The position numbers were made by a program, and so were the translations under genes. Under the pieces are notes generated by a model. It saw only the letters and a list, made by a program, of their open reading frames with translations. It made no database searches and was not told where the DNA came from. This document shows positions 7,930-16,116 of a DNA stretch of 42,002 bases, one piece after another; the first letter of the stretch is position 1; every line of letters starts with the position of its first letter. This stretch comes from Verrucomicrobiota bacterium (GTDB taxonomy: Bacteria > Verrucomicrobiota > Verrucomicrobiia > Limisphaerales > UBA9464): assembly GCA_947471985.1 (NCBI GenBank), contig CANIZL010000059.1, positions 1-42,002 of the forward strand, read 5' to 3'.

Positions 7930-9396
7930 ATGTTGTGCGTGCTCGACATAGTTGATCCCACTAATGGGGCTTCCTCGTCCGAAGCGACCCCCACCCAACG
8001 CAACCCCCGACGCCGCTCCTCCGCTCGAAATTCGCCCGCTGCTGAAGCGCGAATTCCCGCGGAGACGGTGTCTGCCAGTAAGGTGAAGAATTATGTTCTG
8101 GATACCAACGTCCTACTCCACGACCCCAATGCCCTCCTGAATTTCCAGGACAACCACGTCCTGGTACCGATCGAAGTCATCGAAGAGGTGGATAAATTCA
8201 AGCGCGAAACCAGTGACCGGGGCCAGAATGCCCGCACAGTTTCCCGCCGTCTGGATGCCTTACGCACCCAGGGATCCCTCTCCACCGGGGTGCCCCTGCC
8301 CAACGGGGGGCAACTGCGCATCCTGTTCGGTCAGGAAATCACCGTCGGCTCCCGGGCCGCAGCCGTGGCGAATGGTTCGGTCGATTCCCGCATTCTGGCC
8401 CATGCGCTGGCCCTCCACGACACGGATCCGCGCCTGCGCACGGTCCTCGTCACCAAGGACATCAATCTTCGTCTCAAAGCCGACGCCTGGGGGGTGCCGG
8501 CCGAGGATTACGAGACCGATCAGATCAACCTGCAGGATCTCTATACCGGTCATTTCGAAGTAACGGTCACGGCGTCGCAACTCGCGGAATTCAAGCTGCG
8601 CGGCGAACTTCCCTTGCCGGCCAATTCCCGCCTGCGTCATCCCAACGAATATTGCACCCTGCACGAGGAGGGGCCGACCAAGCGGGCCGTGCTGGCCAAG
8701 GTGGATGCCTCGGGCAAAAAACTCATTCCGCTGCAGGACTGCCAGAATGTCTGGGGGATCAAACCCAAGAATCGCGAGCAGCACTTCGCCCTCGACGCCC
8801 TGCTCGACGAGCGGGTCAAGCTCGTCACGCTCATGGGCAAGGCCGGCACCGGCAAAACCCTGCTGGCGCTGGCGGCCGGTTTGAAACGCACCGTGAGCGA
8901 CCGCGAATTCCGTCGCCTCATGGTGGCGCGTCCGACGGTTTCGATGGGCAAAGAACTGGGATTTCTGCCGGGCTCACTCGACGAGAAACTCAGCCCCTGG
9001 ATGCAGCCCATTCACGATGCCTTGGAATTGCTGGGCGATCTGAACATGGGACGCGACCACGGTCGGACGAGCGATCTGCTCCGGAATGGCACCATTGTGG
9101 TGGAGGCCCTGAGTTACATCCGCGGCCGCAGCATCGCCCATCAATTCATGATTGTGGACGAGGCCCAAAACCTCACGCCACTGGAGGCCAAGACCATCCT
9201 GACCCGCGTGGGACACGGCACGAAAATCATTCTGACGGGCGATCCCTACCAGATCGACAACCCGTACGTGGACGTCTCCAGCAACGGCTTCAACTACGTC
9301 ATCAGCCGCTTCCGCGACCAGGCCCTGGCCGCCCACATCGAGTTGTCACGGGGTGAACGCAGTGAACTCGCGGAGCTCGCAGCGAATGTGTTGTAG
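7930..9396 (+). CDS. PIN-PhoH ATPase (PhoH2/YlaK-like)
   Basis: A two-domain cytoplasmic protein of 488 residues. The N-terminal PIN nuclease-like domain begins near residue 54 (KNYVLDTNVLLHDP, Asp58) and includes VLVPIEVIEEVDKFK and LVTKDINLRLKA. The C-terminal PhoH domain has Walker A GKAGTGKT (residues 303-310) and Walker B VDEAQN (residues 409-414), then ILTGDPYQIDNPYVD. PhoH2 proteins are sequence-selective RNA helicase/RNases in characterised actinobacterial cases and are often part of stress systems. Residues 1-50 are low-complexity (RRRSSARNSP), so translation might begin later, for example at the GTG at 8083 just before the PIN strand. The next gene follows 55 bases downstream. Confidence 0.9.
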   Translation: MLCVLDIVDPTNGASSSEATPTQRNPRRRSSARNSPAAEARIPAETVSASKVKNYVLDTNVLLHDPNALLNFQDNHVLVPIEVIEEVDKFKRETSDRGQNARTVSRRLDALRTQGSLSTGVPLPNGGQLRILFGQEITVGSRAAAVANGSVDSRILAHALALHDTDPRLRTVLVTKDINLRLKADAWGVPAEDYETDQINLQDLYTGHFEVTVTASQLAEFKLRGELPLPANSRLRHPNEYCTLHEEGPTKRAVLAKVDASGKKLIPLQDCQNVWGIKPKNREQHFALDALLDERVKLVTLMGKAGTGKTLLALAAGLKRTVSDREFRRLMVARPTVSMGKELGFLPGSLDEKLSPWMQPIHDALELLGDLNMGRDHGRTSDLLRNGTIVVEALSYIRGRSIAHQFMIVDEAQNLTPLEAKTILTRVGHGTKIILTGDPYQIDNPYVDVSSNGFNYVISRFRDQALAAHIELSRGERSELAELAANVL

Positions 9397-9451: not shown

Positions 9452-10222
9452 ATGACCGCGCCCGAGTCTTCCCCCGCCAGCGCACCCCGTCGTTCGTATC
9501 GCGAACTGAACGGGGCCGAGATCATTGCGACGGCGGAGCAACTGCAAGCCCGAATCCTCGAGCGCTTTCCCGATTCCAGCCTGGCCGGCGTCTGCGGCGA
9601 ATTGCGGCAAACGCTCACGGATGTTGGTGAACTCGCCGCCTGGATCCGGCGTCCACACTATGTGATTCGCATCCTGACGGCAGCGCTGATGTTGATGCTG
9701 TTGGCGGCGATCATCGGCGGCATCTCCCGGGTTCATGTGAAGTTTTCCATCCAGACGGCCGCCGAACTCCTGGCGGCCCTGGAGTCCGGAGTGAACGACG
9801 TGGTCTTCATCGGGCTGGGCGCCTTCTTTCTGGGCGGGTGGGAGAATCGCCGCAAGCGGGCCCGGGCCCTGCAGTCACTCCACCAATTGCGATCGCTCGC
9901 CCACGTGGTGGACATGCACCAGCTCACCAAGGATCCCGAACGCGTAACCCGCTCGGGCGGCGACACCCGTTCGAGTCCCAAGCGGGTGATGACTCCCTTC
10001 GAATTGACCCGGTACCTGGACTACTGTTCCGAAACGCTCTCGCTCATCAGCAAGGCGGCGGCCCTGCACGTCCAGGGCTATCAGGATTCCGAAACCCTGG
10101 CGGCCGTCGAGCAAATCGAGGATCTCACCAATGGGTTGAGTCGGAAAATATGGCAGAAGATTATGATCCTGGATCGAATGATCGCCCCGGACAAGGTACC
10201 CGCCCCGGTGCCCGAGCCCTGA
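9452..10222 (+). CDS. Conserved hypothetical protein with two membrane helices
   Basis: A 256-residue protein I do not recognise. Residues 1-70 are soluble and helical (ELNGAEIIATAEQLQARILERF). A strong transmembrane helix spans about 71-92 (VIRILTAALMLMLLAAIIGG), and a second hydrophobic stretch spans about 115-130 (DVVFIGLGAFFLGGW) followed by the positive patch ENRRKRARA. The C-terminal half is again helical (TRYLDYCSETLSLISKAAALHVQGYQD) and ends in a proline-rich tail. Having both long domains on the same side of a helical hairpin suggests an inner-membrane signalling or scaffold protein. It is in the same direction as the PhoH gene, 55 bases away, so they may be co-transcribed. A hairpin follows the stop. 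Confidence 0.75.
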   Translation: MTAPESSPASAPRRSYRELNGAEIIATAEQLQARILERFPDSSLAGVCGELRQTLTDVGELAAWIRRPHYVIRILTAALMLMLLAAIIGGISRVHVKFSIQTAAELLAALESGVNDVVFIGLGAFFLGGWENRRKRARALQSLHQLRSLAHVVDMHQLTKDPERVTRSGGDTRSSPKRVMTPFELTRYLDYCSETLSLISKAAALHVQGYQDSETLAAVEQIEDLTNGLSRKIWQKIMILDRMIAPDKVPAPVPEP

Positions 10223-10467: not shown

Positions 10468-12429
10468 ATGAATACCTCTATCACCGGCACCCGCCGGCTC
10501 CGGTCAACCCGCACTCTGGTGGCGGCGTCCCGTCGGCGCACTGCCGGCCCTTTGTTGGGGCTCGGCGTTCTGGCCTCGCTCGCCCTGACACCCACCACCG
10601 GCACCGCGGCGGAAAGCCACACCACTCCGCAGGTTGCCGCAGCGGTCGGTGGGGAGGAAATCGTCCTCCCCCAGTTTACGTCGGACCCGCTGGAACCGGC
10701 GAACCGCGTGGTCTGGGGAGTGAACCGCGGCATCCTGACCGGAGTGGTCAAGCCCACGGCCACCTTCTATCGGGCCCTGCTCCCGACGCCGGTCCGCAAA
10801 TCCATCAGCCATCTCGGGCACAACGTGCAATTCCCCGGGCGTCTGCTGAACAATCTGCTCCAGGGCAACTGGAACGGCGCGGGAGTGGAATCCGAACGCT
10901 TCCTGTGCAACACCGTCGTGGGTGGCGGTGGGCTTTTTGACGTGGCCACACGGTTCAAAATCGGCCGTTCCCCAGCGGATTTCGGCCGGACTTTCGCCCA
11001 CTGGGGTTGGCAGCCCAACTGGTACCTGATGCTGCCCGTCTTTGGTCCCAGCAACGAACGCGACGGGCTCGGACTGGTGGGCGATTCGTTGGCAAATCCC
11101 CTGACCTATTTCAATCCGTACTCCTACGCCAATTACGGGTTCAGCTACAACAAGCTGAGCGATTCGGTCGATTCCGCCGTGCGCTTCGCCCAATCGGAGA
11201 ACGATCCGTATTATTTCCTGCGTTACGCGGCGAGCTTCACCAGCGACCACCGGGCGGTGGACTTCGAAGTACACGGCGATCAGGACCCCGCCTCCCTGCA
11301 AACGCTCGGGGCGGTCTTCTTTTCGGTGACGGACGTGGATTTTCCCGCCCGGGGCACCACCCGTTCGGTGTTGATACCCACCACCGGCAAGCGCCTGAAG
11401 TTCACATTCTGGCTGCAACCGAAGAAGTCTCCGGTGGTTTACCTGGTGCCCGGACTGGGAGCGCACCGACTGAACGGCCCCGTGCAAGCGCTGGCGGAAC
11501 TGCTGTACCAGCACGGCTACGGCGTGGTCTGTGTCAGCAGCGCCTTCCACCCGGAGTTCATCGAACACGCCTCGACCGCGGCGCTGCCCGCGTATGCACC
11601 CGTCGACGCGCATGACCTGCACGTGGCCCTGACGGCGATCGACCAGCGATTGCGCCGCTACCACGCTGATCAGATGGGCTCCCGCGCGTTAATGGGTTAT
11701 TCCATGGGGGCGTTTCACTCGCTCTTCATCGCCGCCGGAGCGGCCGCAACCGGGAGCGATACCGCACCCCTGATTGATTTCGACCGCTATGTGGCCATTG
11801 ATCCGCCGGTACGCCTGCTGCACGGCCTGGAACAATTGGACAGCTGCTTTCAAGCACCGCTGGGATGGCCCTCCGCGGAGCGTACCGAGAAGATCCGCAA
11901 TTCCTTCCTGAAGGTGGCGGCGCTCGCACAAATGGAGAGCAAGCCGACCGGCGCGCCCCCGTTCAGCGCCATGGAATCCCGCTTCCTGATCGGCGGCGCC
12001 TTCCGCCTCGTCCTGCGGGACACCATCTACAGCAGCCAACGACGCACCAATCTGCATGTCCTGTCCAAGCCCCTTGCGATCTGGAACCGGCAGGAAATTT
12101 ATCAGGAGATCATGCAGCTCTCCTACCACGACTACTACTCCCGACTGGCGGCGCCGTACTACCTGTCCCGCGGCATCGATCTCACCGTGGGTGAGGCCCA
12201 GACCCGGGCCACCGATCTGCGTACCTACGGGGCGACGTTAAAGCGCGATCCGCGGGTCCGCGTCGTTGCGAATCGCAACGACATCCTGCTGGCCGGCGAA
12301 GACGTATCGTGGATGGAGCAAACGTTTACCCCGGACCGATTGACGTTGTTCGACCAGGGCGGCCACCTGGGCAATCTGGCGCAGCCCACCGTTCAGGAAG
12401 CGGTCGTGCGTGCCCTCGACGGATTGTAA
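10468..12429 (+). CDS. MlaA (VacJ)-alpha/beta hydrolase fusion protein, exported
   Basis: A 653-residue protein from the ATG at 10468, with a signal region ending near TGTAAES (residues 44-50) and no lipobox cysteine. Residues about 73-240 match MlaA/VacJ: DPLEPANRVVWGVNRGI, VRKSISHLGHNVQFPGRLLN, DFGRTFAHWGW, LPVFGPSNERDGLG and NPLTYFNPYS. From about residue 300 an alpha/beta hydrolase follows: VYLVPGLGAHRLNG near the oxyanion region, the nucleophile elbow MGYSMGAF (Ser412), RNDILL (Asp605) and DQGGHLGNL (His633), a plausible complete catalytic triad. MlaA normally is an outer-membrane lipoprotein that extracts misplaced phospholipid for the Mla pathway. Joining it to a possible lipase or esterase suggests coupled removal and hydrolysis of lipids. 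No mlaBCDEF gene is present here. An alternative start at 10378 would put 30 unlikely residues before the signal peptide. Confidence 0.88.
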   Translation: MNTSITGTRRLRSTRTLVAASRRRTAGPLLGLGVLASLALTPTTGTAAESHTTPQVAAAVGGEEIVLPQFTSDPLEPANRVVWGVNRGILTGVVKPTATFYRALLPTPVRKSISHLGHNVQFPGRLLNNLLQGNWNGAGVESERFLCNTVVGGGGLFDVATRFKIGRSPADFGRTFAHWGWQPNWYLMLPVFGPSNERDGLGLVGDSLANPLTYFNPYSYANYGFSYNKLSDSVDSAVRFAQSENDPYYFLRYAASFTSDHRAVDFEVHGDQDPASLQTLGAVFFSVTDVDFPARGTTRSVLIPTTGKRLKFTFWLQPKKSPVVYLVPGLGAHRLNGPVQALAELLYQHGYGVVCVSSAFHPEFIEHASTAALPAYAPVDAHDLHVALTAIDQRLRRYHADQMGSRALMGYSMGAFHSLFIAAGAAATGSDTAPLIDFDRYVAIDPPVRLLHGLEQLDSCFQAPLGWPSAERTEKIRNSFLKVAALAQMESKPTGAPPFSAMESRFLIGGAFRLVLRDTIYSSQRRTNLHVLSKPLAIWNRQEIYQEIMQLSYHDYYSRLAAPYYLSRGIDLTVGEAQTRATDLRTYGATLKRDPRVRVVANRNDILLAGEDVSWMEQTFTPDRLTLFDQGGHLGNLAQPTVQEAVVRALDGL

Positions 12430-12447: not shown

Positions 12448-15400
12448 CTATCGGGACTCCACCACGCCTTTCGGCGAAACCACGATCTCGCGGGCCCCCG
12501 GCGGCAGCGCGTACGCATTCGTACCGCCACCCGGCCACTGCACGTGCAGTTCCCGCGCCGCCTGCGGCAGTGCCAGGACCGTGACCGCACTGTCCACGCT
12601 CCAATACCCGGCACCGGAGTGCAGCTCGCGCGCCGGTCCCTGGGTTCCATCCGCATACGTCAGTCGCAGAATCGCACCGCAACCCCGCGGATTCTGCTCC
12701 GGTCCGTTCAAACGGACCCGCAATCCCGGCTTCGCACCCGCATTCCGATACAAGCGCGTCGCGGCACTGTTTTGGCCCACCACCAGATCCGGACGGCCAT
12801 CGCGATCAAAATCCGCCGTCGCCGCACCCCGACCGTCCCCATAAATCTGCAAACCGCTTTGCTCGCCGGGCACCGCTGTAAAGCCCCCGCGACCATCCCC
12901 CCGCAGCCAAACGGATCGCCCGGCGTCGTGGCGCATTTCCTCCGGATCGTTCGCGGTGAAATTCTGGGCCAAAAACAAATCCTCCCGGCCGTCGCCGTCG
13001 AAATCGGCGACCACCAAACCAAACACCGGCGAAACCTGCGCTTCCAGCGGCAGCGGTCGCAGCTCAAAGCGATCACCCCGATTCAGCAGCACGACGGAAT
13101 CAAACCAGGCCGCTTCGCCCAGGATCGGCGCCCGGCCCGCGGTGCCGGTGATTTGTTCGATATCCGCTGCCCCGAAGGCCTCCCGCGTCGGAAACGCATC
13201 ACGCAACGCGGGAAACGCCGCCACCAGCCCGTCCCACTTTCGCGTCGGCACCTCCCGACCGTCGACGTCACGAAAACTTACCAGGGGATCCGGTAGTCCA
13301 TCGCCATTGAGATCGCCGCCCCGTATGCGGAGCGGTCGGCGTGAGGCCTCTCCCGCAAAAAAATGGTTCCGTCCCCAGTTGCCCGCCGCCAAATCCATCC
13401 GGCCGTCGCCATCGAAATCTCCGGCCACGATCGAATTCCACCATCCGGTCAACGCTGAGAGAGGGCGGGGGGATCCCTCGGCCCCGGGGAGGACCACGAG
13501 CGGATCCCAGGGCTGCAACTGACCTTCCCGCTGACGGAGGATCTTCAAGGGCCCCCATTCCGTGGCCAGCGCTAGCTCCGGTCGACCATCGCCATCCAGA
13601 TCCGTGAAGCACGCTCCGCTCACCAAGCCCAGCGCGGGGAAATTCTGCCGTGGCGTTAGCCGCCCCCCATTGATCTGGAGGAGCACGGACCCCGCCGGCT
13701 CCGGATACCGACCCGGTATGGCCCGGCCTCCGAGGAAAACTTCCAACGAGCCCTTCCCGTCCACATCCGCCAAGGCGACCGGACCAACACTGAAAGGCGG
13801 GTGCAGGACCAACTCACCACTCACGTTGCGATCCAAATCGACGATCCGAATCGCACCGCCATTGGTGCCGCCGTCTTCGTAGTTGGCGGAGCCGGCCAGT
13901 AGCGTTCGGTTGAAATACAAAAGTGTCGTCAAATCCCGGGCCAGCGGTCGCGCGAGGACGGCGTTGGTGAGGGGGGTGAACTTTCCCGTTCCGTCGCCCC
14001 GCCAGACCGCCACGCGCCCACCGGTTCCACCGCCCACCAGCAAGTCGTCCACACCATCTCCGTCTACGTCAGCCCACGTCACCCCCGGACCGAGATAAGC
14101 CAGACTGCGCGGCAACGAAGGCTGCCGGCTGAAATCATCAAACACCTCGTCGTGGTGGACATGTCCACCCAGCGCCGCGGTCACGTCACTGAAGTGAGCG
14201 ACCACCGGCGGCGGCGCCGCGAGGCGCGGCGGCGCGGCAACCGCGGGTTCCGTCAATTCCAACAACGGACCGGAGGCGGGATTTTCGTGACGCGTCACTC
14301 GACCGGACGGCCAGCGCACCTCGACAACCACTGCCGGATCCTTTTTCCCCGCCGCCAACCAACTCGGACTCACCGCGAACGTTCGTTCCGCCGCATCCCC
14401 GCTCAAGTAGCGGCCGCCCGCGACCAGTTGCTGGCTTTGTACGAGGCCGTCGCCCACTTGAACGGATATTCGCGCGCCAATGGCCCGGGTATTGGGGGCA
14501 GCGGACTTCAATCGGACCCGCAGACGCCGGGCGGTCGCCTCGTTGCGGTACAGCAATGCCGGTCCATTGAGGCAGTTGGCCACCACGTCCAGATCTCCAT
14601 CGCCATCCAAATCGGCCGCCGCCAGACCATGAGCGACACTCGCCACATCAAATCCCCAGGCGTGACTGACATCCTCGAAGGTAAAATCGCCGCGATTGCG
14701 GAAGGCGGCATTGGGGGCGTCAAACCGATGAAATTTCAAGCGCATCTCCAGCAGCTCCCGCGGGGACATCTTCCGACGGGCCTTCTCGCGCTCCACCTGA
14801 TCGCTCAGGTCCGCATCCATCATTTCCAACTCATGTCCATTCGAAACCAGCAGATCTTCATAGCCGTCCAAATCCACATCCAGAAACACCGGCGACCAGG
14901 ACCATTCGCTCGCACTCAATCCCGCCAACCGCCCGATCTCGGCGAAGGTTCCGTCGCCACGATGGCGAAACACGGTGTTATGGGAGAACTGCGGCAGAAA
15001 ATCCAGCGCCCCCGGCGACCCCACATTCGGCGGCAGGCCGGCGACTTGGAGATTGCGCCGGCGATGGCTGCGGGAAAGCATGTCGAGCACCAGGAAATCA
15101 TCCTGCCCATCCCGGTCGAGGTCGGCGACATCGACGCCCATGCTGAAGGCGGAAAAATGCCGCACCGCGGGCGATCCGACCGCCCGGAAGCGCAACGGTC
15201 CGCCCGGCGGGGTTTCGTTCAGCCAGAAACGATCCGGGGTTTCAAAGTCATTGCAGACATACAAATCCGGCCGGCCGTCGCCATTGAAGTCCCTTAAAAC
15301 AGCGCTCAACCCCCAATCGTAGGGCGCCGTCGTCAGCACCTTGCCCGTGGCGTCGAGAAACGCACCCCCGGTCCAATCGACCGGAGCCAATCCCCCCTTG

Positions 15401-16116
15401 CCGTCATTGAGATACAAGACATCGGGTTCGCCATTCTCCTTAACCCCGGCTGGCCCCAGAAAGAAGCGGCCGATCAAATCCGGTTCCGAAGTATTGCGGC
15501 CGTTGTAAGCCACCACTCGTTGCCGCCCACCCTCGTCACGAATCCGGAAGGTGGCACCAGGATCGTCGCGAATCGACGACAGCCGATAGTTGACGACATA
15601 GAGATCAAGGTCTCCGTCGCCATCGACGTCGGCGAGGGTCAGCGACATTCCAGCGCGCCCGGGATTCAGGCGAGCCGTTTCCCGAAAATGGGCGAGGCCA
15701 TCGTTGTGAAAGACGCGGGTTCCCTCGCCCAGCGTGTTGACGATCAGATCCAGGTGCCCGTCTCCGTCCAGATCCACCGCCACGCAACCGGTGGCATCGA
15801 ATTTCAAGCCCCCCGGAAAGGCCGTCGCCGTGATCCGCTCAAAACGCCATTCCCCCAGATTGCGAAACAAGGCCGAACCGCCCTCGAGCCCGGCCAGAAA
15901 AATATCGATCCGGCCATCGCCATCAAAATCCCCCAGCGCCACTCCGGAGCCGTTGAGCGGAATCTGGTTGGTCAAATAACGGGCGGGAGCGATTGCATTC
16001 GTGAACCACAGGCCGGTCGTGGCCCCGGGCAGGGACGTGAATCCAACGGCGCCGGCGAGAGCGGATCCCGCCAGAATTCCGAACCAACAGCACAGCTGCC
16101 AGAGACGATTTACCAC
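12448..16116 (-). CDS. Secreted FG-GAP/VCBS repeat protein with two ASPIC/UnbV modules
   Basis: A 1222-residue protein starting at a GTG (16116) with a signal peptide (WFGILAGSALAGA). Many calcium-binding FG-GAP/VCBS motifs of the form DxDGDGxxD are visible: ALGDFDGDGRIDIF, AVDLDGDGHLDLIV, LADVDGDGDLDLYVV, WADVDGDGVDDLLV and VADFDGDGREDLFL. These predict a beta-propeller surface domain. Two UnbV/ASPIC modules occur, one in the middle at about residues 525-610 (RRLRVRLKSAAPNTRAIGAR, then WPSGRVTRH) and one at the C-terminus (GLRVRLNGPEQNPRGCGA, then VQWPGGGTNAY). The protein therefore looks like two tandem propeller-UnbV units. Such CRTAC1-like proteins are common in PVC bacteria and are thought to bind surfaces or polysaccharide. 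Its stop is 18 bases from the convergent MlaA-fusion stop. Confidence 0.9.
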   Translation of the reverse strand: MVNRLWQLCCWFGILAGSALAGAVGFTSLPGATTGLWFTNAIAPARYLTNQIPLNGSGVALGDFDGDGRIDIFLAGLEGGSALFRNLGEWRFERITATAFPGGLKFDATGCVAVDLDGDGHLDLIVNTLGEGTRVFHNDGLAHFRETARLNPGRAGMSLTLADVDGDGDLDLYVVNYRLSSIRDDPGATFRIRDEGGRQRVVAYNGRNTSEPDLIGRFFLGPAGVKENGEPDVLYLNDGKGGLAPVDWTGGAFLDATGKVLTTAPYDWGLSAVLRDFNGDGRPDLYVCNDFETPDRFWLNETPPGGPLRFRAVGSPAVRHFSAFSMGVDVADLDRDGQDDFLVLDMLSRSHRRRNLQVAGLPPNVGSPGALDFLPQFSHNTVFRHRGDGTFAEIGRLAGLSASEWSWSPVFLDVDLDGYEDLLVSNGHELEMMDADLSDQVEREKARRKMSPRELLEMRLKFHRFDAPNAAFRNRGDFTFEDVSHAWGFDVASVAHGLAAADLDGDGDLDVVANCLNGPALLYRNEATARRLRVRLKSAAPNTRAIGARISVQVGDGLVQSQQLVAGGRYLSGDAAERTFAVSPSWLAAGKKDPAVVVEVRWPSGRVTRHENPASGPLLELTEPAVAAPPRLAAPPPVVAHFSDVTAALGGHVHHDEVFDDFSRQPSLPRSLAYLGPGVTWADVDGDGVDDLLVGGGTGGRVAVWRGDGTGKFTPLTNAVLARPLARDLTTLLYFNRTLLAGSANYEDGGTNGGAIRIVDLDRNVSGELVLHPPFSVGPVALADVDGKGSLEVFLGGRAIPGRYPEPAGSVLLQINGGRLTPRQNFPALGLVSGACFTDLDGDGRPELALATEWGPLKILRQREGQLQPWDPLVVLPGAEGSPRPLSALTGWWNSIVAGDFDGDGRMDLAAGNWGRNHFFAGEASRRPLRIRGGDLNGDGLPDPLVSFRDVDGREVPTRKWDGLVAAFPALRDAFPTREAFGAADIEQITGTAGRAPILGEAAWFDSVVLLNRGDRFELRPLPLEAQVSPVFGLVVADFDGDGREDLFLAQNFTANDPEEMRHDAGRSVWLRGDGRGGFTAVPGEQSGLQIYGDGRGAATADFDRDGRPDLVVGQNSAATRLYRNAGAKPGLRVRLNGPEQNPRGCGAILRLTYADGTQGPARELHSGAGYWSVDSAVTVLALPQAARELHVQWPGGGTNAYALPPGAREIVVSPKGVVESR

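Follow-up and report, generated by a model that had tools for sequence, protein, structure and literature searches.

Our analysis of a stretch of DNA of 42,002 nucleotides from a bacterium of the phylum Verrucomicrobiota (order Limisphaerales; assembly GCA_947471985.1, contig CANIZL010000059.1, positions 1 to 42,002 of the forward strand), called here the window, found a gene whose product joins an N-terminal domain of MlaA, which withdraws misplaced phospholipid from the bacterial outer membrane, to a C-terminal serine hydrolase of the alpha/beta type. This fusion is a conserved type of MlaA that appears nowhere in print in the open-access literature searched, a scope outside which most subscription papers lie, and the recurrent pairing of its two parts, almost always without the shuttle protein MlaC, suggests that stray lipid is cut rather than carried back whole. 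What the analysis itself establishes is the architecture of the protein, its conserved triad, the recurrent linkage of the two proteins, and the near-absence of MlaC and absence of PldA from the hydrolase-bearing genomes of our sample. A broad survey of these systems, in whose main text the word 'fused' is absent, places MlaABC mostly in Proteobacteria and regards MlaEFD as the ancestral core, at least in the parts drawn on here (PMC10665443). An MlaA lineage trading MlaC for a lipase-like enzyme would be a concrete and testable alternative way of keeping the lipid asymmetry of the outer membrane outside Proteobacteria.

An MlaA domain joined to an alpha/beta hydrolase

A preliminary description of this DNA, made from its letters, had read the protein as an MlaA half followed by a hydrolase half with a Ser412/Asp605/His633 triad; the fusion itself is confirmed and the interpretation then given to it is partly supported. 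In a Pfam scan of the window's protein, the MlaA family PF04333 is matched with an expect value (E) of 1.3e-50 and 172 bits, against a cut-off of 25, over profile positions 2-187 of 195, and a search of the whole genome returns identical coordinates (E 2.7e-51). The crystallized MlaA is also recovered by sequence over residues 72-254 (E 9e-20). The C-terminal half of the window's protein alone gives a weak Esterase match in Pfam (E 0.25), and with an E limit of 0.1, Abhydrolase_1 is matched in 14 of the 29 aligned family members (best 4e-7) and Abhydrolase_6 in 10 of them. Searches of PDB sequences gave only weak matches and were abandoned as a way to place the hydrolase in a family; phospholipase A1 4qnn is among these matches (E 0.007 and 0.011).

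Structure prediction, on which the preliminary description had staked its reading, gives a hydrolase fold with the triad residues after the expected strands. The AlphaFold2 model of residues 47-653 has a predicted local distance difference test score (pLDDT) of 87.7 and a predicted template modelling score (pTM) of 0.87, and its MlaA half superimposes on MlaA structure 5nuo (5nuo_F) with Z 19.2 and a root-mean-square deviation (rmsd) of 2.4 over 190 residues. The hydrolase half of the same model matches 7d78 (Z 21.4, rmsd 3.1, 240 residues), as does the hydrolase modelled alone (pLDDT 90.4, pTM 0.90; Z 21.0, rmsd 3.1, 242 residues). In a Foldseek search with the hydrolase model, rank 2 is the membrane phospholipase A 6i8w (E 9e-9, TM 0.49/0.58, 16% identity), which we take to be PlaF of Pseudomonas aeruginosa. 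Both are alpha/beta hydrolases, but a shared fold is no proof of a shared substrate, and we know of no MlaA part in PlaF. PlaF degrades membrane phospholipid, as far as the cited part of its description goes (PMC9132575).

Ser412, Asp605 and His633 are each invariant in all 56 rows of an alignment of the window's protein with 55 of the 60 related loci found in GTDB (see below), and in the predicted model they lie just after the strands usual for an alpha/beta hydrolase triad, Asp605 and His633 after the last two. In the numbering of the hydrolase model the nucleophile elbow consists of strand 128-136, Ser137 (equivalent to Ser412) and helix 138-152. By conservation and by strand position in the model, the three residues thus qualify as a Ser-Asp-His triad. 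Farther away, 31 fusions from across the phylum all have the GxSxG elbow; around the histidine, 25 of them read GGHxG and five GSH or GAH, and the remaining one lost this part with the contig end (L156; L, G, C and f numbers are our handles for loci, genomes, contigs and families). The PGLGxHR motif that follows an early strand is, from its position, the probable oxyanion-hole loop, and the helical insert of the model probably forms a cap or lid (Table 1).

Table 1. Features of the fusion gene in the window (start and end in nucleotides of the window)
Feature	Position	Strand	Basis or remark
P0001 open frame, MlaA + alpha/beta hydrolase	10468-12429	+	653 amino acids, single frame
N-terminal export signal, ~residues 1-47, without cysteine	10468..10608	+	by eye: translation and N-termini of 56 rows
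MlaA domain, residues 72-254	10681..11229	+	PF04333, structure match 5nuo
Interdomain linker, residues 255-284	11230..11319	+	between Pfam MlaA match and aligned hydrolase half; border approximate
Alpha/beta-hydrolase domain, residues 285-653	11320..12426	+	family Pfam matches, predicted model, PDB fold match
PGLGxHR motif, residues 328-334, after early strand	11449..11469	+	G329, H333, R334 in 56/56 rows
Nucleophile elbow GYSMG with Ser412, residues 410-414	11695..11709	+	G410, S412, M413, G414 in 56/56 rows; strand-turn-helix in model
Largely helical insert before last two strands, ~residues 450-593 (~145 residues)	11815..12246	+	model helices 175-318
Catalytic acid Asp605	12280..12282	+	56/56 rows; after model strand 322-327
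Catalytic base His633 in GGHLGNL	12364..12366	+	56/56 rows; after model strand 350-353

In most of the close relatives compared (L005 and others) the MlaA half is longer by some 14 residues, which resemble a repetition of the PLTYxxPY stretch and are missing from the window's protein (residues 209-214) and from L030 and L031.

Spread of the fusion and its two-gene form

A scan of GTDB for the hydrolase half, which reaches near relatives only, found 60 loci; the MlaA half is also present in 58 of them and the remaining two are cut by a contig end. Another 55 loci retain the sequence of the fusion with 39-58% identity, which excludes chance as its origin. Within the window's order the protein is matched in 32 of 145 genomes, its own included, and MlaA has a patchy distribution, being matched in 31 of the 145; two of these 31 show no fusion, one having a stand-alone MlaA (G084) and the other a match cut by a contig end (G107).

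The preliminary description had asked how widely the fusion occurs, and a sample of 387 genomes of the phylum shows that it is no one-off, with a hydrolase part in 106 of them, only one of which carries MlaC. The family profile is matched in 153 genomes of this sample, the other 47 having MlaA without the hydrolase, a division based on the matches listed and on a second search of 39 genomes with unlisted or unclear matches. An MlaA match is also listed in 80 of the 106 hydrolase-bearing genomes; for the other 26, the frame that holds the hydrolase measures 643-881 amino acids in 25, long enough for both parts, and 316 amino acids in G300. Two genomes carry two copies of the fusion each, G373 (L226, L227) and G261 (L228, L229).

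In ten genomes (G184, G196, G199, G276, G341, G357, G362, G422, G513 and G528) MlaA and hydrolase are encoded by separate, adjoining genes on one strand, MlaA always first, with overlap of stop and start codons in, for example, L182 and L190. The elbow and the histidine motif are both present in all ten separate hydrolases, and both proteins of the pairs have, by eye, signal-like N-termini. The linkage of MlaA and hydrolase is therefore not merely a matter of a single fused frame, and the two-gene forms offer a natural dissection of the fusion for work at the bench.

An unrooted tree of 84 MlaA domains has three groups: 42 fusions, the window's included (branch support 100/99); all ten pairs together with eight further fusions (98/82); and all 24 stand-alone proteins (99/93). 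Its rows were picked by hand from 16 of the 60 GTDB loci, the window, L030, L031, the phylum-wide fusions, the pairs, the stand-alone loci and G084, leaving out L195, which is cut, and L157, L158, L160 and L161, which occupy the same places as L188-L191; L192 sits on a very long branch. In the fusions of the second group (L148, L159, L192 and L196-L200) the two domain matches are 56-106 residues apart, against often 2-25 in the first.

MlaC and PldA in genomes with and without the hydrolase

In the window's own genome, which is estimated to be 96% complete, no match to MlaC (PF05494) was found, while the Escherichia coli and Caulobacter controls were matched. Of the 145 genomes of the order one has MlaC, adjoining the stand-alone MlaA of G084. 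Across the phylum MlaC is present in 47 of the 387 genomes, 46 of them over the cut-off, and it is strongly associated with MlaA that lacks the hydrolase: it occurs in 44 of the 47 genomes with such an MlaA, against one of the 106 that bear the hydrolase, and in 44 of the 47 MlaC genomes MlaA lies less than 1 kb away on the same strand. The single hydrolase-bearing genome with MlaC, G316, carries two MlaA genes: one is part of a fusion and the other stands alone next to MlaC. One of the three genomes with MlaA but without MlaC, G412, has a match that runs into a contig end, so that a hydrolase may have been cut off. Fisher's test among the MlaA genomes gives p 1e-33 with G412 and 1e-34 without it, values of which the former overstates the contrast because the stand-alone MlaA proteins form one side of a single branch of the tree (99/93). 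Over all 387 genomes, with or without MlaA, the counts are 1/106 and 46/281 (p 3e-6), and in groups where both types occur (families f63 and f100, and the window's order) the pattern holds among closer kin too.

PldA is the outer-membrane phospholipase A whose task is the breakdown of mislocalised outer-leaflet phospholipid. The fusion would share this task, although it belongs to a different family and fold, being an alpha/beta hydrolase on MlaA. PldA (PF02253) was found in none of the 106 hydrolase-bearing genomes and in 28 of the 281 others (28 of 387 in all; p 1e-4), the E. coli control being over the cut-off. In the window's own genome PF02253 had no match, and a Pfam search with P0001 at E up to 1 returns MlaA and the weak Esterase match only.

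The preliminary description had also stated that genes of the Mla ABC pathway were lacking, which is true of the window only. Its genome has matches to MlaE and to MlaD/MCE, and on two of its contigs, C1 and C6, MlaE lies less than 2 kb from an MCE match and adjoins an open reading frame of ATPase size (264 and 248 amino acids, respectively; assigned by size only); what is missing is MlaC. Since MlaE and MlaD are present and MlaC is not, the hydrolase may stand in for the shuttle while the transporter is still there.

Export and lipidation

That the protein is exported, as the preliminary description held, is borne out by a signal-like N-terminus with, by eye, a basic n-region, a hydrophobic stretch, and small residues ahead of a likely cut near TGTAA. 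No lipobox and no cysteine were found in the signal region of the window's protein, so the mark of an outer-membrane lipoprotein is lacking, and the protein is an MlaA-domain protein rather than a canonical MlaA lipoprotein. The missing lipobox noted earlier thus stands for this protein but does not extend to the family: a lipobox-like string is found in seven of the 56 rows close to the window, where it is convincing by eye in three (L052, L071 and L096), and, by a loose pattern, in 19 of 31 fusions of the wider phylum. Most of the window's order seems to have given up lipidation of the protein, and the membrane helices of MlaA itself may be enough to keep it in place. Because both proteins of the two-gene forms have signal-like N-termini, the hydrolase most likely works outside the cytoplasm.

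In comparison with MlaA/VacJ (PF04333) of the OmpC-MlaA complex of Proteobacteria, the window's protein is alike in its near-full-length domain and its fold, and differs in the added hydrolase, in having no lipobox, in coming from a genome without an MlaC match, and in grouping apart from the stand-alone type that is linked to MlaC.

Proposed mechanism and alternatives

The best explanation of these results, and one that we hold to be somewhat probable, is an outer-membrane enzyme that extracts lipid and cuts it. In E. coli, MlaC docks at the periplasmic base of MlaA and is recruited by the C-terminal tail of MlaA, according to the portion of PMC10719372 that is cited here. In the fusion a lipase-like enzyme continues the C-terminal end of MlaA and there is no MlaC, which is most simply read as the enzyme itself being the acceptor. 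The MlaA half, in the outer membrane, would pass mislocalised outer-leaflet phospholipid through its channel, like MlaA elsewhere, and the hydrolase, extending from the C-terminal periplasmic end of MlaA, which is the MlaC docking side in the known system, would receive it. Ser412, Asp605 and His633 would then remove one or more acyl chains, so that the hydrolase would take the place of MlaC as acceptor, the lipid being deacylated on arrival, and lysophospholipid and fatty acid, or glycerophosphodiester, could depart with no need of MlaC, after which import at the inner membrane and reacylation would recover them. In this scheme we infer the outer-membrane site, the phospholipid substrate, hydrolysis rather than acyl transfer, the direction of lipid flow and the salvage. 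The coupling of extraction to degradation put forward in the preliminary description survives as the best reading, with the lipase activity itself still putative. The scheme would also matter for the disputed direction in which the Mla system moves lipid, since cutting at the outer membrane is most simply understood for lipid that is departing from that membrane.

More tentatively, with rather less confidence than in the enzyme as such, we propose that much of the phylum has a second, MlaC-free route to outer-membrane asymmetry, of early origin there, in which a lipase, either covalently attached to MlaA or linked to it in an operon, receives outer-leaflet phospholipid directly from MlaA, and the homeward cargo is lysophospholipid plus fatty acid instead of intact phospholipid. 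Such a route would merge in one protein the Mla and PldA routes that are separate in E. coli.

The salvage step can be compared with known systems that would handle the proposed products. In E. coli, LplT and Aas carry out lysophospholipid salvage (PMC11416262, in part), and SPNS1 carries lysophospholipids in lysosomes (PMC12404768, likewise in part). A gene for a spinster-type transporter, whose nearest matches are SPNS2 (E 6e-47) and SPNS1 (E 2e-43) and whose substrate is putative only, lies 3' of the fusion on the same strand in seven of 61 loci (the window and the 60 GTDB loci, some of them short), and an Aas-type acyltransferase/acyl-ACP synthetase gene is near the fusion in five loci, the one in L063 matching NF005959 with E 2e-178, below that family's own cut-off.

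Several observations weigh against extraction coupled to cutting, or against parts of it. The linkage of the spinster-type transporter is seen on several branches, but in one part of the order only, and no member of its cluster was found in 40 regions from across the phylum. Aas was rejected as a specific partner of the fusion, as matches are found in all 145 relatives with or without it. Neither was a phylum-wide operon found in the 40 regions of 12-18 kb, where beyond MlaA and hydrolase no neighbour is widely shared; in this comparison the neighbours were clustered and few of them identified, and the caller of open reading frames missed the fusion itself in L232 and L240. With Aas-type genes in all 145 relatives and no widely shared neighbour, the genomes point only weakly to the salvage step. 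The MlaC contrast is mainly one between MlaA lineages and mostly a single event on the tree, not some 150 independent cases, and 20 of the 28 genomes with PldA come from one family. MlaE and MlaD are still represented in the window's own genome, by four MlaE matches and four MlaD/MCE matches. In the order MlaA went unmatched in 114 of 145 genomes, so the function is dispensable. The tail of MlaA proved unusable as a sequence signature for MlaC, since the stand-alone MlaA proteins of the phylum are mostly short too; they mostly end soon after the DPY motif, which leaves the idea that the hydrolase replaces an MlaC-recruiting tail without support from sequence. As to the enzyme, the fold matches are generic, with esterases, thioesterases and dehalogenases ranking equal to phospholipases; an aminoacrylate hydrolase, 3v48, leads one of the PDB sequence searches (E 0.0012), and the 50 VIA-align matches listed for the hydrolase model do not include 6i8w, an absence which excludes nothing.

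One alternative is that the MlaA fold only positions an esterase or lipase at the outer membrane, where its substrates would lie outside the cell or in the periplasm (plant esters, polymer esters, storage lipids) instead of being lipid delivered by MlaA. Such a role as an anchor is favoured by the feruloyl and other environmental esterases among the fold matches (Z 18-20) and by the patchiness of MlaA in the order (31/145), but the order's fusions mostly retain nearly the whole Pfam MlaA profile, and the separate exported hydrolase still adjoins MlaA in ten genomes, which would be needless for an anchor. It also gives no reason for the MlaC contrast, and we consider this explanation unlikely. 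A serine enzyme of this kind could also work by acyl transfer, with outer-leaflet phospholipid as donor and lipid A, another phospholipid, a lipoprotein or a glycan as acceptor. PagP, for instance, takes outer-leaflet phospholipid as acyl donor, the fold includes acyltransferases (2vat, Foldseek rank 10), and a second substrate might find room in the extensive helical region close to the active site. The sequence itself cannot tell transfer from hydrolysis, but no acceptor-related gene is linked to the fusion across the phylum among the neighbours, which were clustered and for the most part not identified, and acyl transfer appears to us quite improbable.

It is also conceivable that whole phospholipid is still fed to the MlaE/MlaD transporters, directly or by some other shuttle, and that the hydrolase is an accessory which trims or regulates. 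The MlaE and MlaD/MCE matches of the same genome, four of each, speak for this explanation, and Mla systems without MlaC and with a long MlaD are common according to the survey in the part cited (PMC10665443). The same part of that survey describes the MlaD of the Planctomycetes-Verrucomicrobia-Chlamydiae (PVC) group as having no beta-barrel, small multi-chain barrels being allowed, which makes a direct bridge less likely. A triad that is invariant in 56/56 rows, and a hydrolase part in 106 of the 153 profile-matching genomes, count against it, and this possibility seems to us very improbable. Extraction followed by cutting remains the explanation that we prefer.

Sequence sets

The 56-row set, also alignment A4, contains the window and 55 of the 60 GTDB loci, L058 and L093 (cut at the 5' end), L098 (cut at the 3' end) and L097 and L099 (broken frames) having been excluded. 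Alignments A1 and A3 have 15 and 9 rows; A2 has 29, the window and 28 of the 29 loci L003-L031, without L029, whose frame is broken; and A5 consists of the window and 51 of the 60 loci, without L064, L081, L083, L084, L086, L093, L097, L098 and L099. The broken frames of L029 (in G004) and of L099, from a Lake Baikal Pedosphaera genome, each lie on a contig of 36501 bases, are probably the same record and could result from decay or from an assembly error. The titles of the 60 GTDB loci are mostly Verrucomicrobia, Verrucomicrobiales, Limisphaerales and Pedosphaera, with three Akkermansia, one Planctomycetota (L096) and one 'bacterium' (L097). The three titled Akkermansia muciniphila (L053, L060 and L064) have fusions that group with Limisphaerales-type sequences, and these genomes are probably misnamed.

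Neighbouring genes

Two-component regulators were considered as further partners and rejected: a loose single-linkage cluster lies by the fusion in 26 loci, but its kinase and response-regulator look comes from reading alone, and the association does not extend across the phylum. A membrane-type protein of about 245 amino acids is encoded 3' of the fusion in six loci (L045, L046, L070, L073, L074 and L091), its copy in L073 being without a Pfam or NCBIfam match, and in part of family f99 (L208, L209 and L212) two open reading frames of about 504 and 429 amino acids are found near the fusion in kept order. In the window itself, the frame directly upstream of the fusion (9452-10222, + strand) encodes 256 amino acids, which probably include a membrane segment; scans of Pfam and NCBIfam with an E limit of 0.001 matched no family. 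It is preceded by an ordinary gene (7930-9396, + strand) for a PhoH-like ATPase with an N-terminal PIN domain (PF02562, E 4e-50; PF13638, E 4e-31), and on the other side, convergent with the fusion, lies the gene for an FG-GAP / ASPIC-UnbV repeat protein of 1222 amino acids (12448-16116, - strand).

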